A DNA stretch of 64,000 nt. Origin: Microbacterium sp. ProA8 (GTDB lineage: Bacteria; Actinomycetota; Actinomycetes; Actinomycetales; Microbacteriaceae). Position numbers and translations under genes: made by a program. The notes under the pieces are model-generated. The model did no database searches and was not told the DNA's origin. It worked only from the letters and a program-made list of their open reading frames with translations. Position 1 is the first letter of the stretch. The number at the start of each line of letters is the position of its first letter. Shown here piece by piece: positions 5,288 to 17,158 of this stretch. The stretch covers positions 2,542,001 through 2,606,000 of the forward strand of contig NZ_CP157000.1 in assembly GCF_039905635.1 (NCBI RefSeq). Direction: 5' to 3'.

Positions 5288-6793
5288 CTACGGCCGCGCT
5301 GCCCCCACGGAGCCTGTCGCCCGCGGCGAAAGGTCCGGAAGCGCCCGGATGCCGAACTGATTGCGCAGCGCACTCAGCGCGGCGAACCAGCCGGGCAGAC
5401 CCGTGACGCCGGGGCCGGGAGCTGCGGACGCGGAGGCGAGGTAGACGCCGGGAATCGGCGTGCGCCACGGGTCGGGGCTCAGCACCGGGCGACGAACGAG
5501 CTGCCAGAGGCTGGGAGCGCCGGCGGCGATGTCACCGCCGGGATAGTTCGGGTTGTGCCGCTCGACCTCGCGCGCCGTGCGTGAGCTCGCCGCGAGGATC
5601 GTGTCGCGGAAGCCGGGGGCGAACCGCTCGATCTGCGCGGTGACCGCTTCGCGGCGGTCGACCGCACTCCCGGCGGGCACGTGGGTGTACGTCCACAGGG
5701 TGTGCTTGCCCGCCGGGGCCCGGGTCGTGTCGAACAGCGACGGCTGCGACACCAGCACGTAGGGGCGTTCGGGCAGGCGACCGCGGTTCACCTGATTCTC
5801 GGCATCCGCCACCTCCGCACGTGTGCCGCCGAGATGCACCGTGCCCGCGCGGCGCAGCTCGGCGTGCGTCCACGGGACGGGGTCGCTGAGCGCGAAGTCG
5901 ACCTTGGCGACGCCGTCCCCGTACCGGAAGCGCTGCAGCGCCCGCCGGTAGCGGGCGGGCATCGCGTCGCCGGCCAGCCGGATGAGCGCCTTGGGTGTCA
6001 CATCGAGGAGAGTGGCGGTGGCGTCGGGCAGCGCGTCGAGCGCTGTCACCTCGTGGTCGACGACGAGTTCCCCGCCGTGCGCGCGCAGATCGTCGACCAT
6101 CGCATCGATGATCGCCTGGCTGCCGCCGATCGGGATGGGCCAGCCGCGCGCGTGCGCATAGGCGGTGAGCGCCAGCCCCGCGCCGGCGGCGGGGACGCTC
6201 GGCATCGACAGGATCGTGTGCGCGGCGACACCGGTCAGCATGGCGGGAGCGACGTCTTGCCGGAAGCGCAGATTCCACGCTGGGCTTCCCTGCTCGAGCG
6301 CGCGCAGGCCGAACGAGACCGCAGTCGGGATGTCGCTCGGAATGCGCACCAGGGGCGACCCGGTGAATTCCGCGACGCGCGTCGAGTGCTCGACGAGCGG
6401 GCGCATCAACTGGGCGTATGCCAGCGCGTCGGGGCCGAGCGCCTCGGCGGTGCGCCCCAGATCGTGGTAGGCGACACCCGCATGGCGTTCGTCGAGCGGG
6501 TGCGCGAACGAGACGTCGGGCGTCACGAACTCCACGCGCTCACGCAGACCGAACTCGCGGAAGAACCGCGACTCGAAGGCCATCGGGTGCACCGCAGAGC
6601 ACACATCGTGGTGGAACCCCGGCAGCGTCAGCTCCCGTGTGGCCGCCCCGCCGCCGGGCCGGTCGGCGCGTTCGTACACCCGCACGCGCAATCCCGCGCG
6701 GGCAAGGGTGACGGCGGCGGCGAGACCGTTGGGGCCGGCCCCCACCACGACGGCGTCGAGATCGCCGCCGCCGCGCCTGGGGCGGGTGTTCAC
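5288..6793 (-). CDS. NAD(P)/FAD-dependent oxidoreductase of the phytoene desaturase type
   Basis: A 501-residue flavoprotein. The dinucleotide fold is at the N-terminus ([21 protein letters not shown], then [14 protein letters not shown]). The end has a second FAD motif ([24 protein letters not shown]), as in CrtI/PDS-like amine oxidoreductases. No other carotenoid gene is nearby, so the substrate is unknown; many actinobacterial members of this group are not carotenoid enzymes. Translation starts at GTG 6793, overlapping the stop of the SRPBCC gene as GTGA. The two therefore form a coupled operon. Confidence 0.8.
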
Positions 6794-7752
6794 GGTGACG
6801 GCGCCTCGGTCCCGGCGGATTCGCTCGCCACGGGCGGGTCTCCGGTGGGCGTGCCCGCGGTGGGCTTGGCTCCGGCCGGCTTGGCCCCGGCGGTCTTGGC
6901 TCCTGTGGGCTTGGCGCCGCTGCGTGACGGCTTGGGCGCGGGGTCGGATGCCGCGTCCGCCGCCGACTCACCGGGCTTCGGGGTGTCGGGAGCGAGGGGC
7001 TCCGACTCCCCCGCGCCGGCCAGGGGGTTCCATGAGTCCTCGAGGTCGAGCGGCTGTCCTGTCGCGTCAGCCTGCTCCACGCCGTCGGTGCTCGTGACCG
7101 GAGCAGGCTCGGGCTCCGTGGCGTTCGTCGACATCGCACCCTCCGTTCCACCGGTGCCGGACACGGCGTCGGCGAGCTCATCTCCCTGCAGTTTGGCAGC
7201 ATCCGCGGGGTCGGCACTCGCCGATGCGGCCGTGGCGGCGCGAGCCCCGGCATCCGTGTGGTGCTCCTCGCCGGTGTCGGCCATCTCCTTCTCGGCCGTC
7301 GTCGCCTCGAGGCGGCCGGCGGCCCTCCCTTCGGCGAGGTACGCGAGCCGGTGCAGGGTCTCGTCGTTGCGCCAGTGCAGGGGGATGTCGAGCAGCTGCT
7401 GCGGGATGAACCGGCCCGGTCCCGCGATCGCCTCCTCCTGGATGCGCACGACGCAGCCGTCTCCGCGCGTCTTGACGTCGATGGTCACGCGCGCCTCGCC
7501 GATCGGCCAGCCGCGCGCCCGCATCACCATCATCCGCGACGGGATGAACTCCTCCACCACCGTCTTGTCGTCGATGAGCGCCGGCCAGACTCCGAACGAG
7601 TGATGCAGCTCTGCGCCCGCCATCGGCCACGTCTCGTCGACCTCTCGCATACGGGACGCCCCGACGACCCACGACGGATACAGCCAACCGTCGCTCAGCA
7701 CCTCGAACACGTCCTCGGGTGTGCAGTGCAGCACCCTCACATTGCGGGACAT
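6790..7752 (-). CDS. SRPBCC-family protein with long Ala/Pro/Lys-rich C-terminal tail
   Basis: A 320-residue protein. Residues 1-~145 are an SRPBCC (START-like) domain: [34 protein letters not shown] and the closing helix [17 protein letters not shown]. Such domains bind hydrophobic ligands in an internal cavity. The rest is low-complexity and ends in [19 protein letters not shown] repeats like histone H1-type tails. ATG 7752 is chosen because GGAGGAG lies 8 nt upstream. The gene is coupled (GTGA) to the FAD oxidoreductase, so the two may act on one lipophilic compound. Confidence 0.8.
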
Positions 7753-8066
7753 CGCGTCGCTCCTCCGCCGTCGTGGGTCCGTGCGGACGACGATAGAACA
7801 GGCCGCGTCGGCCATGGAGCGGGTTGCGCCGAGACCGATCGTGTGCCATCCCGCGCCGATGTCATGATCACGGACGCCTCGTCCCGACCGTCGGCGGTGG
7901 CCTCGCCACCGGGGCGCGACAATCACCCCTCCCAGCGTGCACATGGTACGCCCGAGATCCCGATTCGTAAACAGGTCAGTCGGCTTCGAGGTCGGCGGGC
8001 TACCCTGTCGCCTCCCAACGACAACGTCGGGCTCCCTCGCCGGCCCGGCGGAGGAGGACACCCATC
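7753..8066. promoter_or_regulatory. Divergent intergenic region upstream of the SRPBCC and repeat-protein genes
   Basis: A 314-nt stretch with no convincing ORF. A TACCCT hexamer (about 8001-8006) could be the -10 box of the rightward operon, giving a leader of about 55 nt. The leader ends in GGCGGAGGAGGACACCCATC, a very strong ribosome site for ATG 8067. I see no riboswitch fold or clear operator palindrome. Confidence 0.35.
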
Positions 8067-9491
8067 ATGAGCACGAACACCCCGAGGCCGTTGACGGCCG
8101 AAGAACTGGCGGGCGAGGGAATCATCGCGCTACCTGCCAAAGAGGTCGTCTCGATCCTCGACCTGGCAGCCGATATCGACCTCGCGATCGACGGCGCGGC
8201 GCCCATCGACCTCGCGATCGCACTGAATGCGAACGTGGTCGCACCGATCGACGCGGCCGTGAGCGCGAACCTGCTCGCCGACGGCTCGTCGGCCCAGGCC
8301 ATGTCCGACCAGGCGGTGCAGGTGACCCAGACCGTCGAGGCCGACGCGATCGCCACCGCGCTGCAAGACAGCACCATCGATCAGTCCGACACGACCGAGA
8401 ACGAGGATCCCGCAGACGGTTCCCTGCTCATGGCAGGCACGGGTACCGGCGAGTTCATGGCCGACGGCGCCGCGCTGGCGGATGCCGCCCCGATCGACGG
8501 CAGCGTCGTCATCGATTCGACGGGCGCGATCATCGGCGTCCTGGATGCCGCCACGGGCAACGTGATCGACGCCGACGGCGCCATCATCGGAACGCTCAAC
8601 GAGACGTCGGGAATCGTCGTCGACGCGGCCGGCAACCTCATCGGCACGGTCACCGACCTGGTCGACGGTGCAGCCGTCGTGGGTTCGGGTGGTCAGGTGC
8701 TCGGCATCCTGGATGCCCTCACCGGGCAGGTGCTGGATGCGACCGGCAACGTGGTCGGAGCGCTCGACCCGCTGACAGGCGAGGTGCTGGACACCCTCGG
8801 CAACGTGCTCGGCACGGTGACCGACTTCGTGGACGGCACGACGGTGCTGGATGCCGCGGGCAACGTGATCGGCATCCTCGATGCCGCGACCGGCAACGTG
8901 GTCAACTCCCTCGGCACCGTCATCGGTGCGCTGAACCCGCTCACGGGGCAGGTGCTCGATGCCGCCGGCAACCTGCTCGGCACCGTCGGCGAGATCATCG
9001 ACGACGTGACCGACGCGCTCGGCCGGCTCAACACCGGCGACCTGCTGAAGGGCGATCTGCTGAACGTCGACGTCAACGTTGACCTCGATGCGGATCTCGC
9101 GGCACCGATCAACGGCGCCGTGGCCGCCAACGCCAACGTGGCGGCGCCGATCGATGCCTCGGTGGCGGCGAACATCCTCGCCGACAACTCCGAGGCCACC
9201 GCCATCGCCCAGCAGGAGGCGGTGATCACGCAGGTGATCAGCGGCAGCGCGATCAGCACGTCCGACCAGTTGTCCAACATCGACCAGGGCGACCCGGTCG
9301 ACGACGACGACACGGCGTCGACCGACGATGTCGTCGTGCCTGCGGTCGAGATGCCCGCCGTCGACACCGTGGACGACACCGCGTCGACCGACGACGCTGC
9401 CGTGCCTGCGGTCGAAATGCCTGCCGTCGAAACCGTGGACGCCCCGGCGTCCGACCCGAGCGTCGACTCGGCTGACACCACCACACCGTGA
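8067..9491 (+). CDS. Repetitive, highly acidic protein with leader-like N-terminus (unknown family)
   Basis: A 474-residue protein with almost no Lys or Arg. Residues 1-35 are leader-like (LTAEELAGEG then ALPAKEVVSIL) but are not a Sec signal peptide. A module near residues 53-107 (LNANVVAPIDAAVSANLLAD, Ala/Gln-rich, ending TIDQSD) recurs near 353-407 (ANANVAAPIDASVAANILAD, ending NIDQGD). Between them (about 144-310) lie short beta-hairpin-like repeats of the form VLDAAGNVIG..D..TG. The C-terminus is Asp/Thr-rich with a tandem duplication (VPAVEMPAV). The stop overlaps the GTG of the M50 protease gene (GTGA). It may be that protease's substrate or partner; this is inferred from coupling only. 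Confidence 0.75.
   Translation: MSTNTPRPLTAEELAGEGIIALPAKEVVSILDLAADIDLAIDGAAPIDLAIALNANVVAPIDAAVSANLLADGSSAQAMSDQAVQVTQTVEADAIATALQDSTIDQSDTTENEDPADGSLLMAGTGTGEFMADGAALADAAPIDGSVVIDSTGAIIGVLDAATGNVIDADGAIIGTLNETSGIVVDAAGNLIGTVTDLVDGAAVVGSGGQVLGILDALTGQVLDATGNVVGALDPLTGEVLDTLGNVLGTVTDFVDGTTVLDAAGNVIGILDAATGNVVNSLGTVIGALNPLTGQVLDAAGNLLGTVGEIIDDVTDALGRLNTGDLLKGDLLNVDVNVDLDADLAAPINGAVAANANVAAPIDASVAANILADNSEATAIAQQEAVITQVISGSAISTSDQLSNIDQGDPVDDDDTASTDDVVVPAVEMPAVDTVDDTASTDDAAVPAVEMPAVETVDAPASDPSVDSADTTTP
8496..8996 (+). repeat. Central coding repeats of the acidic protein
   Basis: About fourteen imperfect units of 11-14 codons, each built as (V/I)-L/V-D-A-x-G-N-V/L-I/L-G followed by a short linker (LDAATGNVID, LDALTGQVLD, LDPLTGEVLD, LNPLTGQVLD). 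At DNA level the recurring core is GATGCCGC...GGCAACGTG. The pattern suggests a stacked beta structure. Confidence 0.75.
9321..9438 (+). repeat. Tandem duplication in the C-terminal coding region
   Basis: Two copies of a ~57-nt unit encode GTCGACC-type Asp/Thr segments followed by VPAVEMPAV(D/E)TVD. The copies differ by few substitutions, so the duplication looks fairly recent. Confidence 0.6.
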
Positions 9492-11986
9492 CAACGCTCG
9501 TCGACGCACCCACCCGCGTCGACGGTGTCGAACTCATCGGAGCGATGGTGGGGTCCGGCTACCGGACCTCACCCTCGCTGGTGAGGCGCGCGGACGGACA
9601 GGTGCTCCAGCTGACCCCGCTGCTCTACCACGTGCTCGACGCCGTCGACGGCCGGCGCGGAGTCACAGAGATCGCCGAGACCGTGGGGCGGGCCACCGGC
9701 CGCGCCGTCACGGCCGCCGACGTCCAGGCGCTGGTCGACCGGCACCTGCGGCCCCTCGGGCTGCTGCGCAAGGCCGACGGGTCCGAGCCCGAACTGCGGC
9801 GGTCCGACCCGCTCCTGGCACTCAAGCCGCGGCTCGCGGTGACCAAGCCGAGTACGACGCGACGACTGACCGACCCGTTCCGGTTCCTGTTCCGTCCCGT
9901 GCTCGTCGTGCCCCTCGTCTTCGCGTTCGTCGCGATCGTGGGGTGGGTGTTCTTCGAGCGAGGGCTCGCGGCATCCGCCTACGACGCGTTCCAACGGCCC
10001 CACCTCCTGCTGCTCGTGTTCGTGGTGTCGGTGATCTCCGCCGGCTTCCACGAGTTCGGGCATGCGGCCGCACACCGCTACAGCGGCGGGGTGCCCGGCT
10101 CGATGGGCGCGGGCCTGTACGTGGTCTGGCCGGCGTTCTACACCGACGTCACCGACAGCTACCGGCTCGGGCGACCGGGCCGCATCCGCACCGACCTCGG
10201 CGGGCTGTACTTCAACGCCATCGTGGTGGTGCTCACCTACTTCTGGTGGCTCACGACCGGCTGGGAGGCGCTGCTGCTGCTGGTCGCGACGCAGATCCTG
10301 CAGATGGTGACGCAGCTGCTCCCGTTGCTGCGCTTCGACGGCTACCACGTGCTGGCCGACCTCGCCGGCGTCCCCGATCTGTACCACCGCATCAAGCCCA
10401 CACTGCTCGGGCTGCTGCCGCATCGCTGGAACTCGCCCGACCAGCGTGTCCTGACCGTCCGCGCGCGCGTGCTCATCACCGCGTGGGTGCTGGTGACGGT
10501 TCCTCTGATGGGATTCATGCTCTATGCGATGGTGCGGGCGGTGCCACGGTTGCTCGGCAGCGCGGGATCGGCGATGGGGACGGATGTCGCGGCCGTGGTC
10601 GACGCCGGGCTGAACGGTCGCCTGCTCGATGTCGCCGCGTACAGTCTCCAGGTGCTGACGGTGGCGCTGCCGGTTCTCGCCTGCGCGCTCGTGCTCGGAC
10701 GCGTGGGCTTCCGGTTCTTCCGCGGGCTGCTGCGGTGGAGCCGCGGGTCGACCCCGAAGCGCGGCGTGGCCGTGATCGTCGGTCTTGCCGTCGCAGGTGG
10801 GCTGGCGTGGGCGTGGTGGCCGGGTGAGGACAACTACCGTCCGATCCAGCCCGACGAGCGCGGCACCATCACCGCGATTCTGCCCGACCGCGCGAGCGCG
10901 CCGGCTTCCGGCCCGCGCACCGTGCTGCCCGTGAGGGAGGCGTCGCCGATCGCGTCGCCGATCGGCGCGGCGGCGGAGCGGCGGCTCACGAGCGGGGAGC
11001 CCCTGGTGACCACGTTCGATCGGGGCACCACGCTGCCGACGAAGGCCGACCCCATGCTGGCCATGGTCCTCGTTCCCGCGACTCCCCAGCCGTCGGGGCC
11101 GACGCTGACCGCCTGGGACGGCACCTGGGTGTTCCCCTTCGACAAGCCGCTGCCTCCCGAAGAGGGCGACAACCAGGCGCTCGCGGTGGTGACGGAGGAC
11201 GGCGGCGTGGCGTACGACGTGGCCTTCGCGATGGTCTGGGTCGACGACGTCGAGATCACGAACGTCAACGAGGCGCACGCCTACGCCTCGTGCACCGACT
11301 GCGTCGCCGTCGCCGTCGCGTTCCAGGTGGTGCTGATCATCGACGATGCGCGTGCCGTCGTCCCGCAGAACCTCGCCGTCGCCGCGAACTACGATTGCCG
11401 CTCCTGCGTCACCGCGGCGCTGGCCAGCCAGCTCGTGCTGTCGCTCGAGCAGGAGCCGGGTGAGCAGGAGCTGCGAGCGCTCGGCGAGGTCTGGCAGGCG
11501 CTGCTGGATTTCGGTACCCGGATCACCGCGTACTCGCTCGCCCAGATCAGTGCGGTTCTCGACGTCGTCAAGGAAGAGATCAAGGAGATCGTCGGTGCTG
11601 CGCCGCCGCTGGAGCCGGATGCGGCTGCCCCCGCGACGTCGCCCACACCTGAGCCGACACCCCTCTCGGACGTCGAGGCCGCCGTGCCCGGCGTGGTGGA
11701 GCCCCCGCCACCCGATGGCGTGAGCGAACCGTCGCCGGCGGACGAACCGGCGCCGGCGACCGAAACGACGCCGGCGACGGAGCCCGCCCCCGCGACGGAA
11801 CCGGCGCCGCCGACCGATCCCGCGCCGGCGATCGATCCCGCGCCCGAGCCGGCGCCCGCGCCGGAGCCGGCGCCCGCACCTGCGCCCGAGCCGACGCCGG
11901 AGCCCGCACCTGCGCCCGAGCCGACACCGGAGCCCGCACCTGCGCCTGCGCCGGAGCCGACCCCGGAGCCGACACCGACGCCGTGA
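9488..11986 (+). CDS. M50-type membrane metalloprotease with CxxC-pair domain and Pro-rich tail
   Basis: An 832-residue protein. Residues ~20-100 look like a winged-helix or PqqD-like domain (LVRRADGQVLQLTPLLYHVLDAVDG...). Membrane helices follow, with the zinc site HEFGH at 188-192 and a distal ligand motif LLRFDGYHVLAD (Asp284), as in putative peptide zinc metalloproteases. More helices reach ~445. The exported part holds two cysteine pairs, CTDC (602-605) and CRSC (637-640), each followed by an A(V/L)A.Q.V.. pattern. The end is a ~115-residue Pro/Glu/Ala tail. GTG 9488 overlaps the previous stop. It probably cleaves or exports a coupled substrate; the family has no role known to me. Confidence 0.8.
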   Translation: MTTLVDAPTRVDGVELIGAMVGSGYRTSPSLVRRADGQVLQLTPLLYHVLDAVDGRRGVTEIAETVGRATGRAVTAADVQALVDRHLRPLGLLRKADGSEPELRRSDPLLALKPRLAVTKPSTTRRLTDPFRFLFRPVLVVPLVFAFVAIVGWVFFERGLAASAYDAFQRPHLLLLVFVVSVISAGFHEFGHAAAHRYSGGVPGSMGAGLYVVWPAFYTDVTDSYRLGRPGRIRTDLGGLYFNAIVVVLTYFWWLTTGWEALLLLVATQILQMVTQLLPLLRFDGYHVLADLAGVPDLYHRIKPTLLGLLPHRWNSPDQRVLTVRARVLITAWVLVTVPLMGFMLYAMVRAVPRLLGSAGSAMGTDVAAVVDAGLNGRLLDVAAYSLQVLTVALPVLACALVLGRVGFRFFRGLLRWSRGSTPKRGVAVIVGLAVAGGLAWAWWPGEDNYRPIQPDERGTITAILPDRASAPASGPRTVLPVREASPIASPIGAAAERRLTSGEPLVTTFDRGTTLPTKADPMLAMVLVPATPQPSGPTLTAWDGTWVFPFDKPLPPEEGDNQALAVVTEDGGVAYDVAFAMVWVDDVEITNVNEAHAYASCTDCVAVAVAFQVVLIIDDARAVVPQNLAVAANYDCRSCVTAALASQLVLSLEQEPGEQELRALGEVWQALLDFGTRITAYSLAQISAVLDVVKEEIKEIVGAAPPLEPDAAAPATSPTPEPTPLSDVEAAVPGVVEPPPPDGVSEPSPADEPAPATETTPATEPAPATEPAPPTDPAPAIDPAPEPAPAPEPAPAPAPEPTPEPAPAPEPTPEPAPAPAPEPTPEPTPTP
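11640..11983 (+). repeat. Pro/Ala/Glu/Thr low-complexity coding repeat
   Basis: The C-terminal ~115 codons of the M50 gene are built from EPAPA, TEPAP and EPTPE units (GAGCCGGCGCCCGCG-type DNA repeats). Such tails usually span or bind the cell wall. Copy number is likely variable between strains. Confidence 0.75.
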
Positions 11987-12007: not shown

Positions 12008-12811
12008 TCAGGCGAACCCGAGTTCGCCGCGGACGATCGAGTCGCCCGAGTGCGTGGGATCGCCGTCGGCCGGTTCCTGCGAGACGTCGACGAGCACGTA
12101 CTCGCGCAGATCGATGTCGTCGGGCACGGGAAAGACCCCGGTGCTGCCTTCGAGCGTGCCCAGGCTCACAAGAGCCGACGCATCCTCGGTGATCAGCCAG
12201 ACCTCGCGGAATCCGTCGCTCGGCTCTGCGGCCTCGAGATCGACCTGGACCTGCCGCGCGCCGTCCGGCTTCTCCACGATCACCGCCGTGCCCGACGCAT
12301 CGGGGTGGGCGGGGAACGCGTCCAGGGTCGCCACTGCGATCTCGACCGGCTGCGTCTCGCGCACCAGCGTCCACGTCCCCACAGCGGCGACGATCAGCGC
12401 GATGCTCGCCGCAAGAGCGAACACGATCCTGGTCCTCCGCTTCCGCCGCGCGGGCGCCGGAGCCCCGGGAGATTCCTCGTCGTCGGAGACGGATGCCGCA
12501 GCCGAAGCGCGCTCAGGCTCGTCAGCGGTCGCCGCCCGCTCCCGCTCGTCCGCGGCCGGAATCCCGCCGGCGGTCGACATCCGGTCCGCGGCGCCGAGCC
12601 CCAGCTCCTCGGCGATGCCCGCCCACACGCGCTCGGGCGGCGCCTCGAGGTCACCCACGCCCACCGTCGAGCGGCCGACGATCACGGTGTACTCCAGTTC
12701 GGCGAGCTCCAGCGCGCACTCGTCGCACGTGTCGAGGTGCGCACGCTCCTCGTCGGTCGCCGGCTCGCCGAGCGCGATCAGCGATAGGCGGTCGGGGTCA
12801 AGGTGCGACAT
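12008..12811 (-). CDS. Anti-sigma factor (RskA/zinc anti-sigma type)
   Basis: A 267-residue membrane protein. The cytoplasmic N-terminus has the zinc-binding motif HLDTCDEC (His25, Cys29, Cys32). An Ala/Glu-rich linker leads to a basic RRKRRTR patch and one membrane helix (about 125-145). The extracellular half is an RskA-type domain (VWLITEDASALVSLG...). Its start lies 14 nt inside the end of the ECF sigma gene, the usual sigma/anti-sigma arrangement. It should hold the sigma factor inactive until an envelope signal triggers proteolysis. Confidence 0.9.
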   Translation of the reverse strand: MSHLDPDRLSLIALGEPATDEERAHLDTCDECALELAELEYTVIVGRSTVGVGDLEAPPERVWAGIAEELGLGAADRMSTAGGIPAADERERAATADEPERASAAASVSDDEESPGAPAPARRKRRTRIVFALAASIALIVAAVGTWTLVRETQPVEIAVATLDAFPAHPDASGTAVIVEKPDGARQVQVDLEAAEPSDGFREVWLITEDASALVSLGTLEGSTGVFPVPDDIDLREYVLVDVSQEPADGDPTHSGDSIVRGELGFA

Positions 12812-13349
12812 GGCCTACCTCCAATCGGCTGCGCAAACGGGTGAGACTTCGCCTGATGTGGCTCTTCACCGTACCGAGCGGCATGCCCAGTCGCTCTGAG
12901 ATCTGCTCATGAGTCAGATCGTCGTAGAACGCCAGTCGTACCACGCGCCGGGCGTCGGGCTCGAGCCGGTCGATCTCATCGGCGAGCAGCAGCCGGTCGC
13001 CCAGGTCGACCTCCCCGCCCACGACATCGTCCGGCGTGGTGAACCGCTGCAGTTCGGCCTGCAGCGCCCGCACCCGGGTCCGTGCCTCCAGGGTGTCCGC
13101 GATCCGACGCCGCGTGATGGCGATCAGCCACGTCGAGAGCTTCGCCTTCGTCGGGTCGAATCGCTCCCGCGAGGTCCACGCCGATACGAAGGCCTTCTGC
13201 GTGACGTCCTCGGCGTCGCCGCGATCGCCGACGAAGCGCAGCGCCATGGTGAACACGACCGGCGACCACCGGCGGTAGATCTCCTCGAGTGCGCGTTCGT
13301 CGCCGCGTCGGAAGCGATCGCTCAGCTCCCGCTCGTGCGCGTCATCCAC
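12798..13349 (-). CDS. ECF-type RNA polymerase sigma factor (SigK-like)
   Basis: A 183-residue ECF sigma factor. Region 2 has EEIYRRWSPVVFTMALRFVG and the DAEDVTQKAFVSAW motif; region 4 has AFYDDLTHEQISERLGMPLGTVKSHIRRSL, the -35-binding helix-turn-helix. GTG 13349 (VDDAHEREL) is preferred over ATG 13388 because GAGAGGA precedes it by 7-8 nt and the ATG adds only an Arg/Thr-rich lead. With its anti-sigma factor downstream it probably controls the DUF4397/sortase operon in which it lies. Confidence 0.9.
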   Translation of the reverse strand: MDDAHERELSDRFRRGDERALEEIYRRWSPVVFTMALRFVGDRGDAEDVTQKAFVSAWTSRERFDPTKAKLSTWLIAITRRRIADTLEARTRVRALQAELQRFTTPDDVVGGEVDLGDRLLLADEIDRLEPDARRVVRLAFYDDLTHEQISERLGMPLGTVKSHIRRSLTRLRSRLEVGHVAP

Positions 13350-13398
13350 GCTGTGTCCTCTCGTCCTCGTCCTCGTCAAGAGCGGCATCGTCGCCGGC

Positions 13399-14037
13399 TC
13401 AGGGAAGCGGGGTCGCTATGGCGACCACGTTATCCGCGTATCGGCCCGTCGTGGAGTCGAACTCCCCACCGCAGGTGATGAGCACGAGCGCCTTCGTGCC
13501 CGTGCGCGCGAACAGCTCCTCTACCGGGAGCTCGGCCTTGGGGAAGTAGGTGACGGATTCGATGGCATAGCGGTGCGTCGTGCCGGCGGCATCCGCCACT
13601 TCCACGACGTCGCCGGCGACCAGCTCGCGGAGCCGGCTGAAGGGGCCGATGGGATACCCCGGGGCGTCGACATGCGCCGAGATCACGACATTGCCGTCGG
13701 CGCTCGTCGGATCGGACCCGAACCGGTACCAGCCGGCGACGGCCGGGTCGACGGGCAGCTCCATGAAGCCGCCCTGCTCGACGCCGACGGGCACCACCGG
13801 AACCTCCACACCGAGCGAGGCGGCGACCACCCGCACCGGCGGCTGCGGGGTGCGCGCCGGTGTCGGAGTGGCCGCCGCGACCGGCACCTCGACCACCGCA
13901 GTGGGGGTCGGCGTGGGGAGCGCCGTCGTGGTCGGTGCCGTCATCGGCGGACTGCTCTCGGGTTGCTCCGAGCCGCACCCCGCCAGCACGAGCACGACCG
14001 CAAGGGCGGCCAGCGCCCCTGCGGTCGTCCTCGCCAT
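13399..14037 (-). CDS. Class F sortase with lipobox
   Basis: A 212-residue protein. A signal sequence ends in the lipobox LAGC (Cys21), so it is likely a lipoprotein. A Pro/Thr linker follows, then the sortase fold: catalytic His in ISAHVDAPG, Cys in LVLITCGGEF and the active-site Arg in TGRYADN. The length and motifs fit actinobacterial class F (single, non-pilin) sortases. It is 11 nt downstream of the DUF4397 gene, so that surface protein is the obvious candidate partner, although it shows no standard sorting motif. Confidence 0.85.
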   Translation of the reverse strand: MARTTAGALAALAVVLVLAGCGSEQPESSPPMTAPTTTALPTPTPTAVVEVPVAAATPTPARTPQPPVRVVAASLGVEVPVVPVGVEQGGFMELPVDPAVAGWYRFGSDPTSADGNVVISAHVDAPGYPIGPFSRLRELVAGDVVEVADAAGTTHRYAIESVTYFPKAELPVEELFARTGTKALVLITCGGEFDSTTGRYADNVVAIATPLP

Positions 14038-14048
14038 GTCGCAGATCC

Positions 14049-14876
14049 TCAGCGGTTCGCCCGTGTCCGGACGACGACGACAGCGGATGCCGCGACCGCC
14101 GCCGCGAGCGCCAGCCCGGCGACCAGGAACATGGACTGCATCATCGCGTCGCGTTCGGCGAGCTGACCGCCGGTGCCAGAGTTGACACCGTCCGGGGCCG
14201 AGTGCAGGCCCGACACCGTCTGGACGGCGACCGCCAGGTTCTCGTCTTCGAGGCTGCCCCACGCGTAGACGACGGTGAGGACACCCTCCTGGACGGTGAC
14301 ATCGGTCGGCCCGAGGACGGGGTCGGTCGTCCCCGCCGCCGCGACGGAGGCCGAGATCGTCCCCGCGGCGAGGTCGAGGCTCGCCTCGTTGGGGTTGGTG
14401 AGGTCTTCGATGACCGGGGTGCCGCCCGCGAGGACGTCGACGGCGGGGGCCGCCGCGACGTGGCGAACGGTCAGGCGTCCTTCGCCTGCGGCGGTGCTCG
14501 ACGTGTCGTTGACGAACGGTGTGAGCGTCGGCTGTCCAGCCTCGTTCAGGTGCGCGACGGCGGTGTAGTTGGTGCCGGCGGCGAGCGTCAGGGTCGCCGG
14601 TCCGAGCACCGGGGCGCTGGCATCCGCGGCATCCGGAGCCGTGATCGCGACCTCGTAGTCGCCGGCCGGGAGGTCGAGCGGTCCGGCAAGATCGCCGGGC
14701 TGGAAGTTGTCCAGAGTCAGCTCGCCGTTGACGTACACGTCGACCGGGGTCTCGGGGATGCCGTGAAGCACCGAGAGCACGGCACCGTCGGCAGTGCTGG
14801 CACTGGCGGGTGCGACCATCAGACCGAGGCCTGCGATGGCCCCGGCGGCGATGCCCGCGAGAATCTTGTTTCGCAC
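14049..14876 (-). CDS. DUF4397 domain surface protein with C-terminal membrane anchor
   Basis: A 275-residue exported protein starting at GTG 14876, which is preceded by AAGGAGGACCACC. Signal peptide: VRNKILAGIAAGAIAGLGL...ASAS. Two DUF4397-type beta domains follow (VLHGIPETPVDVYVNGEL and VRHVAAAPAVDVLAGG). The C-terminus has one helix (MFLVAGLALAAAVAASAVVVV) and a basic end (RTRANR), a sorting-signal-like layout but without LPxTG. It leads an operon with the sortase, ECF sigma and anti-sigma genes. Confidence 0.85.
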   Translation of the reverse strand: MRNKILAGIAAGAIAGLGLMVAPASASTADGAVLSVLHGIPETPVDVYVNGELTLDNFQPGDLAGPLDLPAGDYEVAITAPDAADASAPVLGPATLTLAAGTNYTAVAHLNEAGQPTLTPFVNDTSSTAAGEGRLTVRHVAAAPAVDVLAGGTPVIEDLTNPNEASLDLAAGTISASVAAAGTTDPVLGPTDVTVQEGVLTVVYAWGSLEDENLAVAVQTVSGLHSAPDGVNSGTGGQLAERDAMMQSMFLVAGLALAAAVAASAVVVVRTRANR

Positions 14877-14912
14877 GGTGGTCCTCCTTCGTCGGGGCGG
14901 TCGGTCGCCGCC

Positions 14913-14942
14913 CATCGGAAAGTGATTCCCTCCGAAGGGTGG
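14913..14942 (-). promoter_or_regulatory. Possible ECF-type promoter of the DUF4397/sortase/sigma operon
   Basis: On the minus strand CCACCC (14942-14937) and CCGATG (14918-14913) are 18 nt apart, similar to the CCATCC/CCGATG layout I recall for mycobacterial SigK promoters. The site is 37 nt before the GTG. If real, the operon would be autoregulated. This is a weak match. Confidence 0.25.
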
Positions 14943-14992
14943 ATATGGATGCACCTGAATGAAGATGTCTCGGATCTTGTGCGCGCGGTGCG

Positions 14993-14998
14993 TAGAGT
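14993..14998 (+). promoter_or_regulatory. -10 box for leaderless SIMPL gene
   Basis: TAGAGT ends 7 nt before ATG 15006. No Shine-Dalgarno site is present, so the mRNA probably starts at or next to the ATG. Confidence 0.5.
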
Positions 14999-15005
14999 CG
15001 GCTTC

Positions 15006-15683
15006 ATGAGCGACGTCGTCATCACGGTCCGCGGGGAGCACGAGACCCGCATCGCCCCCGAGCGTGCGATCGCGCACCTCACCATCCGCTCCGAGGGCAC
15101 CGAGCGCGGCGCGGTGGTGGAGCGCATGGCCGCGTTCACCGAGCCGGTGCGCGATGACCTCGCCGCTCGCAAGTCGGCGGGCACGATCATCGAGTGGACG
15201 AGCCAGCGCGTGTCGGTGTGGTCGGAGCGACCCTGGAATCCCGAGGGCAGGCGTCTGGCCCCCGTGCACCACGCCAGCGTCGACTTCTCGGTCACCTTCG
15301 CCGACTTCGCCGTGCTGTCGTGGTGGGCCGGTGAGGTCGCCGAGCGCGAGGGCGTCCAACTCGGCTGGATCGAATGGAAGCTGACGCCTGAGACACGGGC
15401 GCGAGTCGAAAGGGATGTCGCCACCCAGGCCGTGAGCGTGGCCGTCGCTCGCGCGACGGCCTACGCCGGTGCCCTCGGGCTCGCCGACGTCACCGCCCTC
15501 GAACTCGCCGACCTCGGACTGCTCGCTCGGCAGGACCGGCCCGAGATGGCCCCGCCGGGGCGCATGCTGATGGCGAAGGCCTCCTTCGCGGGCGACGCCG
15601 CCGGCGGGGGGCCGGCGGTGCAGCTGCAGCCCGAAGACATCGTGATCTCCGCCGCCGTCGAGGCGCGCTTCGCCGCCCGATGA
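15006..15683 (+). CDS. SIMPL domain (DUF541) protein
   Basis: A 225-residue soluble protein whose length and pattern fit the SIMPL/DUF541 family: an N-terminal ITVRGEHETRIAPERAIAHLTI strand pair, a central SVWSERPWNPEGR loop, and the closing VQLQPEDIVISAAVEARF, close to the usual end of this family. There is no signal peptide, so it is cytoplasmic here, unlike many Gram-negative members. The function of the family is poorly known. The gene appears leaderless and its stop overlaps the M20 peptidase start (ATGA). Confidence 0.85.
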   Translation: MSDVVITVRGEHETRIAPERAIAHLTIRSEGTERGAVVERMAAFTEPVRDDLAARKSAGTIIEWTSQRVSVWSERPWNPEGRRLAPVHHASVDFSVTFADFAVLSWWAGEVAEREGVQLGWIEWKLTPETRARVERDVATQAVSVAVARATAYAGALGLADVTALELADLGLLARQDRPEMAPPGRMLMAKASFAGDAAGGGPAVQLQPEDIVISAAVEARFAAR

Positions 15684-17158
15684 CCGCTGCCGACGGCGCG
15701 CACCCGACGTCGGACACGTCCAGTGGGCCACACGCCGACCCTTCGCGGTCGTTGAGCGAGGGAGGCACGACCGAGACGAAACGCCACGAACACGGCGGAG
15801 ACGCTTCGTCGCGCTCCCCCGACGGGCGACCCGTGAGCGTCCGCCCCGGGATCGCCGAGCGGCTGTCGCGCATGATCCAGCTGCCCACGGTCTATGCCGA
15901 ACGCGCCGAACGGGGACCGGCGCCGTTCGACGCGTTCGCGGATCTTCTCGTCGATCTCTACCCCCTCGTGCACGAGCGCCTAGAGCGGGAGCGCATCGGC
16001 GAGCTCGGCATCCTTTATCGCTGGCGTGGACGCGTCGCCGAGCGGCCCACCGTGCTCATGGCGCACTTCGACGTCGTTCCCGTGGACGAGAGCGACGCGT
16101 GGTCGCATCCGCCCTTCGAAGGACGCATCGAGGGCGGCTGGGTCTACGGTCGCGGCGCCCTCGATGACAAGGGACCGCTGGTGGTGGTGATGGATGCCGT
16201 CGAGAACCTCCTTGCGGCCGGCTTCACGCCCGCGCGGGACGTGTACCTGTCGTTCGGCGGTGACGAGGAGACGTTCGGCGGCGCCGCCCGGGTGATCGCC
16301 GAGACGCTGCGGGACCGCGGTGTCGAGCCGTGGCTCGTGCTCGACGAAGGCGGCGCCGTCGTGGCGGCGCCCCTCCCCTTCGTCCGCGGACGGGCGGCGA
16401 TGGTCGGCGTCGGCGAGAAGGGTGTGCTCACACTCCGCCTCAGCGCCCGCGGCGAGGGCGGACATGCGTCCGCTCCGCCGTCGCGGACCGCGGTGCGCCG
16501 CATCGCGCGCGCGGTCGAGCGCCTCGGCCCCGGCACGTTCCCGGCGCGCACTCCGACTGCGGTCACGCGGATGCTCGAGCTCTTCGCGACACGGGCCGAC
16601 GGCATCCCTCACCGCCTCTATCGCCTGCTGGCCGCCATGCCGTGGCTGACCGCGCGGGCCTTCGCGGCGATGGGCGGCGAGCCGGCTGCTCTCGTGAGAA
16701 CCACCGTCGCCGCGACCATGCAGTCCGGCGGCACGGCCGCGAACGTGCTGCCCTCGCAGGCGTCGGCGACGCTCAACCTGCGCATCGCGCTCGGCGAGTC
16801 GGTGCAGAGCACCGTCACTCGGGTGCGGCGACGGATCGCCGATCGACACGTCACCGTCGAGGTGCTCGAAGGTGACGAGCCGTCGCCGGAGTCCTCGACC
16901 GAGAACGCGCAGTTCGCGCTCATCACCGAGGCCGTGAAGGTGTCCCATCCGGACGCGGCGACCGTGCCGTACATGATGATGGCGGCGACCGACTCGCGGC
17001 ACTTCCACCGCTTCTCGCCCGCGGTCTACCGCTTCGCGCCGCTCGAGATGAGCAAGGCGCAGCGCTCGTCGATCCACGGGGTCGACGAGCGCGTCGATAT
17101 CACGGCGCTCGAACGGGGTGAGCTGTTCCATCGCACGCTGCTGCAGCGCTTAGAGTGA
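15680..17158 (+). CDS. M20/M25/M40-family metallopeptidase
   Basis: A 492-residue zinc peptidase. Metal ligands are visible: LMAHFDVVPVD (His and catalytic Asp), GRGALDDKGPL (bridging Asp), FGGDEETFGG (Glu-Glu) and a late His. The dimerisation domain begins near GEGGHASAPP. It probably acts on dipeptides or N-acyl amino acids. The first ~55 codons are atypical and contain the repeat element at 15744-15784; the family-like part starts around VSVRPGIAERLSRMIQLPTV, so a GTG near 15834 may be the ancestral start. ATG 15680 overlaps the SIMPL stop. Confidence 0.88.
   Translation: MTAADGAHPTSDTSSGPHADPSRSLSEGGTTETKRHEHGGDASSRSPDGRPVSVRPGIAERLSRMIQLPTVYAERAERGPAPFDAFADLLVDLYPLVHERLERERIGELGILYRWRGRVAERPTVLMAHFDVVPVDESDAWSHPPFEGRIEGGWVYGRGALDDKGPLVVVMDAVENLLAAGFTPARDVYLSFGGDEETFGGAARVIAETLRDRGVEPWLVLDEGGAVVAAPLPFVRGRAAMVGVGEKGVLTLRLSARGEGGHASAPPSRTAVRRIARAVERLGPGTFPARTPTAVTRMLELFATRADGIPHRLYRLLAAMPWLTARAFAAMGGEPAALVRTTVAATMQSGGTAANVLPSQASATLNLRIALGESVQSTVTRVRRRIADRHVTVEVLEGDEPSPESSTENAQFALITEAVKVSHPDAATVPYMMMAATDSRHFHRFSPAVYRFAPLEMSKAQRSSIHGVDERVDITALERGELFHRTLLQRLE
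15744..15784. repeat. Repeat-like element (GGTCGTTGAGCGAG...CGAGACGAAACGC) inside the M20 gene
   Basis: The sequence has two half-sites, GGTCGTTGAGCGAG and CGAGACGAAACGC, separated by a short G-rich loop. I recall very similar dispersed repeats, usually intergenic, in Microbacterium genomes. Here it lies in the N-terminal coding region. Only one full copy was noticed in this window. Confidence 0.45.

Follow-up and report, generated by a model that had tools for sequence, protein, structure and literature searches.

What does an intramembrane metalloprotease do with a leader-bearing, acidic repeat protein encoded directly upstream of it? This question is raised by two genes in a 64,000-nucleotide stretch of the Microbacterium sp. 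ProA8 genome (contig NZ_CP157000.1; hereafter the window), which lie head to tail on the same strand. The partner gene spans 8067..9491 (+) and the protease gene 9488..11986 (+), with the letters GTGA shared by the partner stop and the protease start. A preliminary description made from the DNA letters had noted this overlap, and the coordinates and strand bear it out. The partner–protease pair is real and widespread, and both the pairing and the domain identities are well supported. We favor, with a probability of roughly 0.6, a two-gene, leader-guided intramembrane processing system in which a trimmed, beta-rich and nearly Lys/Arg-free partner is probably displayed outside.

The partner is a 474-aa, Cys-free protein whose open reading frame (ORF) has a Shine-Dalgarno-like GGAGGAG upstream of its ATG. 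The protease gene starts with GTG and encodes an 832-aa protein combining RRE, M50 and CxxC regions. GC content is 68% and 72% for the two genes against 71%, and the pair does not stand out.

Co-occurrence of partner and protease

A protease profile scan of a species-genome collection gave 173 confirmed relatives, the best 80 of which were kept as nearest relatives and represent 79 distinct loci. All 79 have a partner homologue that stops shortly before the protease gene. The intervening gap, measured to the nearest in-frame protease start codon rather than to a proven start, ranges from -4 to 62 nt with a median of 8 (70 pairs; L026 was excluded for a meaningless value), and 8 of these 70 pairs could have the 4-nt overlap. 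Leader, length and Lys/Arg counts refer to 71 of the 79 loci; eight partners (L017, L028, L046, L047, L050, L074, L075 and L080) were left unparsed but still count among the 79.

A less biased sample, 148 genomes drawn evenly from the class and including the window's own, gave 36 protease matches in 32 genomes, 30 of them at E <= 1e-60. Four of the 30 fall at the end of a contig (L151, L157, L158 and G491:C446, of which G491:C446 may belong to one gene with G491:C462), and all 26 testable strong matches have at least one leader-bearing ORF beside the protease. The precursors share the core module of the window partner in 18 of the 26; in the remaining 8, where protease identity is 37-44%, an LLP.R..L-type leader precedes different cores and was recognised by a looser motif. 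Five loci of the six weaker matches (E > 1e-60) were inspected, with G465 left out. The loose leader pattern occurs in 22 of 22 loci among L142-L150, L152-L156 and L159-L166, and in 30 of 35 overall. It misses the very distant L168 and L170, as well as L113, L118 and L120, in which precursors are present but divergent or carry LE for LP; three of the 30 matches, in the very distant L167, L169 and L171, look accidental and are not counted as members.

The reverse search gave a corresponding picture. The partner profile matched 18 of 396 genomes of the phylum, with the protease at the same locus in 16, elsewhere in one (G167) and without a match in one, so that 17 of 18 genomes hold both. The alignment behind this search (A2) includes one sequence, P0167, whose middle looks frame-shifted. 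Matches from the homologue searches are the best 120 of 4083, 120 of 493 and 120 of 473. The co-occurrence that the preliminary description proposed to look for is thus seen from both genes, and chance pairing was set aside in view of the counts of 79/79 and 26/26.

Once apparent antisense or frame shadows of the pair are discounted, clustering of the neighbouring ORFs shows no third gene family at more than 17 of the 79 loci (ORFs of at least 80 aa, E <= 1e-20, 25 largest clusters). In this clustering some contigs are short, shadows were judged from the first six coordinates, and families were not individually annotated. Pairwise identities of partner and protease correlate moderately in a mirror-tree comparison (Spearman 0.45, 2556 pairs), a value in which co-evolution and shared descent are not separable.

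Related loci carry the names Nocardioides, Terrabacter, Arthrobacter, Mycolicibacterium, Actinokineospora, Kribbella and Blastococcus, among others. The protease occurs in only 1 of 99 genomes of the window's own genus; the pair is therefore patchy, and was perhaps acquired. One pair (L036:9219-12295) lies in a contig filed as a Chloroflexi metagenome-assembled genome, reflecting either misbinning or spread beyond Actinobacteria.

Architecture of the partner protein

The leader LTAEELAGEGIIALPAKEVVS (8091..8153 (+), residues 9-29) contains LP.KE..S, which is invariant across 64 aligned sequences, and it aligns with the leader of the short tandem precursors described below. Close to the partner N-terminus stands the stretch LTAEELAGEGIIALPAKEVVSILDL, and the leader-like ALPAKEVVSIL of the preliminary description occupies residues 21-31. 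Conservation of the leader motif, also raised there, is complete among parsed partners, with LP.KEV in 71 of 71. The leader together with the N-module spans 8091..8387 (+) (residues 9-107), and the C-module, a second copy of the N-module core, lies at 9048..9287 (+) (residues 328-407). The two copies of this module of about 80 aa share 48% identity between residues 30-114 and 331-415 (E 1e-25), and comparison of their profiles gives a probability of 99.8 (E 2e-28), so the duplication noticed earlier stands. Between them, at 8508..8990 (+) (residues 148-308), we count nine copies of a unit of about 18 aa, starting at residues 148, 166, 184, 204, 222, 240, 260, 278 and 296, instead of the earlier estimate of about 14. 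This middle region is beta-flower/DUF3659 in a Pfam scan, is predicted to be beta-stranded and is hypervariable among relatives. A 66-bp tandem repeat at 9306..9456 (+) codes for the acidic C-terminal tail.

Median pairwise identity over 72 pairs is 0.67 for the N-module, taken with the leader, and 0.68 for the C-module; the protease core reaches 0.70, the CxxC domain 0.62 and the RRE 0.59, as against 0.27, at 12% coverage, in the partner middle and 0.25 in the protease tail. The scarcity of Lys and Arg in the acidic protein, likewise noted before, is evident from its composition (2 Lys, 2 Arg and 78 Asp+Glu). It extends to the family: after the leader, the 71 partners contain 36 Lys+Arg in 16,870 residues, 39 of them contain none, and Cys occurs in 0 of 71. 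These identities and counts indicate that the ends of the partner are conserved and the middle is free, and that hardly any positive charge follows the leader. A chain lacking such charges would be little hindered by the positive-inside barrier, which may be the reason for this scarcity.

Partners are 200-506 aa long and end in Q in 47 of 71 cases and in T in none. Neither a Sec signal, whose absence had been claimed, nor a transmembrane helix is apparent in the window partner on the Kyte-Doolittle scale (top 19-aa score 1.52; no dedicated signal-peptide predictor was run), and a Pfam scan found no DNA-binding or signalling domain. Among the matches listed, the homologues P0122, P0123, P0126, P0132, P0139, P0143 and P0178 carry the precomputed Pfam accession PF27499, which our own Pfam scan of P0122 and P0143 did not report.

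Architecture of the protease

The PqqD-like N-terminal domain proposed earlier corresponds to an RRE at 9500..9778 (+) (residues 5-97). In the AlphaFold2 model it adopts the three-strand, three-helix winged-helix PqqD-like fold, and leader-bound RREs rank among its best matches in structural alignment. The site-2 protease (S2P)/M50 membrane region follows at 9896..10822 (+) (residues 137-445) with about seven transmembrane segments. Its model has the S2P fold and aligns with SpoIVFB in complex with its substrate pro-sigmaK. The HEFGH zinc motif that had identified it as a metalloprotease lies at 10049..10063 (+) (residues 188-192), on a helix (171-198) that model and hydropathy place within a hydrophobic segment. 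The motif with the distal zinc ligand Asp284, DGYH, lies at 10337..10348 (+). H188, E189, G191, H192, D284, G285 and Y286 are invariant in 48 sequences.

The CxxC/CxxC domain at 11165..11452 (+) (residues 560-655) is predicted to form two beta-hairpins, with the CTDC (602-605) and CRSC (637-640) pairs of the preliminary description at their turns. A thioredoxin-like role was set aside since the model predicts CxxC at a hairpin turn; the domain alone was not fold-searched. The tail at 11609..11983 (+) is a low-complexity Pro/Ala/Glu/Thr segment, predicted to be disordered; it is Pro-rich, as had been said, putatively wall-spanning and poorly conserved.

The CxxC domain has stand-alone homologues in L112, L118 and L120, separate proteins that each begin with a hydrophobic, signal-like segment. 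This places the domain outside the membrane in these loci and, by extension, also when fused, so that the CxxC domain of the window protease is probably extracytoplasmic. After each stand-alone gene comes a lipoprotein-like gene, judged by eye (L112:5666-6442, L118:4997-5842 and L120:5961-6764), for which no significant Pfam match was found. Many stand-alone CxxC proteins among the matches listed bear the JGI name 'putative peptide zinc metalloprotease protein', which seems to have been carried over from the fused form.

Short precursors and distant relatives

Weak partner matches are tandem precursors of 64-80 aa, often three per locus (for example L114:9810-10004), which share the leader and core of the window protein. 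Their leader and core align with the window N-module in a profile comparison (probability 99.4). A leader-plus-core organisation, which bears on the definition of ribosomally synthesized and post-translationally modified peptides (RiPPs), is visible in partner and precursor sequences. Precursors occur in threes or fours at L112, L115, L117, L121, L150, L152-L154 and L156, at least one of them with AIP or AVP for AAP at the start of the core, which suggests distinct subunits.

The short-precursor core also resembles one half-repeat of the CxxC domain, with a profile score of 27.8 compared with 15.4 for the reversed profile and a maximum of 16.5 in 60 column shuffles. The similarity is weak for the C-module of the long partners (21.2; reversed 10.5; shuffles up to 17.6), and their N-module is hardly similar (16.4 versus 12.5 reversed). 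The match of the short-precursor core to the half-repeat suggests co-assembly.

Several features of this branch and of more distant relatives may be recorded here. Next to the short precursors, a small basic protein (L112:9828-10055, L113:7607-7897, L114:9527-9859 and L119:8712-8876) shows a pattern like INAVIAANVGEKGSVSHVSSKQRIVQR and resembles the core with Lys/Arg replacing acidic residues. At L112:2794-5369 and L118:6108-8520, which belong to different genera of one family (G001 and G178), the cassette adjoins genes that look, by eye, like rplK, rplA and nusG. The RRE-M50 protein extends into a ParA/MinD-like ATPase domain at L160:3834-6125 (by eye) and L161:4118-6403 (Pfam and NCBIfam), and the precursors of these two loci combine an LLPxRETL leader with different cores.

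Comparison with known systems

Daptide MpaP and epipeptide EpeP/YydH are the closest known systems, and membership fails in both cases. The daptide protease MpaP (NF041824), whose precursors are MpaA, is described (PMC10036551) as an RRE fused N-terminally to a site-2 protease and encoded beside leader-bearing precursors, from which it removes the leader. NF041824 is the best NCBIfam match of the window protease (E 7e-29), but its cut-off of 300 is not reached by the window protease (101.1), by five relatives (97.8-109.2) or by a distant one (81.2). Daptide leaders carry ELExMEAP and their precursors an invariant C-terminal Thr, whereas the partners studied here share LP.KEV and never end in T. 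The partners are also 200-506 aa long, and the protease has an additional CxxC domain and tail. Conserved daptide-type aminotransferase, dehydrogenase, methyltransferase and ABC genes were not found beside the pair in the 79-locus clustering, in which families were not individually annotated, and no conserved enzyme gene other than the protease was found in those loci, enzymes encoded elsewhere not having been sought.

A radical SAM enzyme is the hallmark of epipeptide systems, and none was found among the window neighbours scanned. The window protease scores 43.5 against the NF058609 cut-off of 225, and its putative substrate is a large protein. The likeness lies in an M50 membrane protease (YydH/LiaK/EpeP), with EpeP thought to cleave and export its peptide EpeX (PMC10885120). 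TMcin TmcP, in turn, is portrayed in PMC13252029 as an S2P-clan protease that removes a RiPP leader in the membrane; it is of the DUF3267 type, however, its precursor has a transmembrane helix, and its cluster also encodes an ABC transporter, joined in staphylococci by a DsbA-like protein. The intramembrane proteases of these papers, whether fused to an RRE or removing a leader, act on small peptides that are mostly modified (PMC10036551, PMC10885120, PMC13252029).

The earlier statement that no named system has this set of features agrees with the two missed cut-offs and with a full-text literature search, covering few subscription papers, that found no description of an RRE-M50-CxxC/leader-partner family. 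Curli (CsgA/CsgB) and chaplins offer a parallel in their secreted beta-strand repeats and in a minor homologous component that could nucleate the major one. In contrast, the putative substrate here lacks an apparent Sec signal, and has a leader and an RRE-protease instead. Membership in the curlin or chaplin families was rejected, with no Pfam model match for the window protein (curlin E <= 1) or for P0122, P0143, P0214, L114:9810-10004 and L119:9208-9642 (E <= 10).

Proposed mechanism and alternatives

In the mechanism we favor, the upstream protein would present an N-terminal recognition leader (LTxEEL...LP[D/A]KEVxS) ahead of a beta-rich body almost without Lys/Arg. The cytoplasmic RRE domain would bind this leader and bring the chain to the S2P/M50 active site in the membrane, where it would be cut C-terminal to the leader. 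The trimmed partner would then pass, or be passed, to the outer face and meet the extracytoplasmic CxxC hairpin domain. The two conserved modules may serve processing and assembly, with the variable middle, here nine beta-flower-like repeats, as the displayed part. Strong homology argues for leader binding by the RRE and cutting by the S2P site, with a precedent in MpaP (PMC10036551), and coupled cleavage and export have a stated, if proposed, precedent in EpeP (PMC10885120). The conserved leader encoded next door lends indirect support to leader binding. Export of the product and its encounter with the CxxC domain are steps that we infer, as are its surface location and assembly. The recognition, cleavage and export suggested in the preliminary description are therefore supported in part: the pairing, the conserved leader and the RRE and S2P folds stand, and binding, cleavage and export follow from them only by inference.

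Several observations weigh against this mechanism. Of the 26 loci, the 8 that diverge most owe their precursor calls to the loose motif, whose background is 20% (983 of 4881 random segments), and genome G006 has precursors, at a contig edge, without a protease match. Hydropathy is at least 1.6 (maximum 1.94) over some 15-aa stretch of the first 45 residues in 14 of 71 partners, and at least 1.6 over a 19-aa segment anywhere in 2 of 71, so the leader region may associate with the membrane. Model confidence is low for both partner modules (predicted local distance difference test, pLDDT, about 60) and for the CxxC hairpins (mostly 43-71), the hydropathy scan flags residues 598-626 within the CxxC domain, and neither model has a Foldseek match at E <= 1e-3. 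With no widely conserved transporter or third gene family found, the export route is unexplained for a protein of 200-506 aa without an apparent signal peptide. SpoIVFB, which has no RRE, yields a cytoplasmic sigma factor that is released into the cytoplasm, so the partner product need not be exported either.

This last point leads to the possibility of regulated intramembrane proteolysis of a cytoplasmic pro-protein, in which the partner would be released inside the cell and the CxxC domain would be an outside sensor controlling the protease. We regard this as quite unlikely. The partner looks structural and lacks a DNA-binding or signalling domain by Pfam, and the CxxC domain, being encoded on its own in other branches, need not control the protease in cis. 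It is highly improbable that the partner serves the protease as a dedicated chaperone or inhibitory pro-protein, with the true substrate encoded elsewhere in the genome: the operon is tight, with the overlap possible in 8 of 70 pairs, but in other branches several tandem precursor paralogues with a common leader resemble substrates more than regulators.

As substrates, the precursors might instead be matured to secreted antimicrobial or signalling peptides, with the long protein of the window as a multi-core version of such a RiPP-like product. Tandem short precursors with a shared leader beside an RRE-M50 gene are reminiscent of daptides (PMC10036551), and the more distant L159-L166 retain an LP.R leader while their cores differ. 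Beside the pair, however, the clustering of the 79 loci (ORFs of at least 80 aa) showed no conserved gene family for modifying enzymes, ABC exporters or immunity, and modules conserved across large distances are not expected of antimicrobial cores. We therefore consider such a product unlikely. The processing system we prefer could extend, though with low probability, to a new kind of surface fibre: RRE-selected, intramembrane-trimmed precursors that lack an apparent Sec signal might polymerise outside on the CxxC hairpin domain, a monomer paralogue with CxxC at its turn, with protease and nucleator as one molecule, or as two proteins in the short-precursor branch.

Genes surrounding the pair

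Immediately downstream and convergent with the pair, at 12008-13388 (-), lie genes for an extracytoplasmic function (ECF) sigma factor and an RskA-type anti-sigma factor (Pfam). A sortase gene adjoins that of a DUF4397 protein at 13399-15731 (-) (Pfam), the latter ending, by eye, in a C-terminal membrane anchor. The divergent neighbour at 6790-8061 (-) is polyketide-cyclase-like with a long low-complexity tail, and the GTG start listed for it, at 8061, probably lies upstream of the true one.

Significance

Among the relatives, the precursors grade from short tandem copies into a single long protein, and the CxxC part grades from a secreted protein of its own into a domain fused to the protease. 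An RRE and an intramembrane protease here go together with whole proteins, 200-506 residues long, whose modules are conserved across large distances and whose middle varies freely, and no modifying enzyme was found beside them. Since such a system would reduce to two genes, it would be directly testable. If the proposal is true, many soil actinobacteria would have a way to mature, and perhaps display, proteins that requires no Sec signal.
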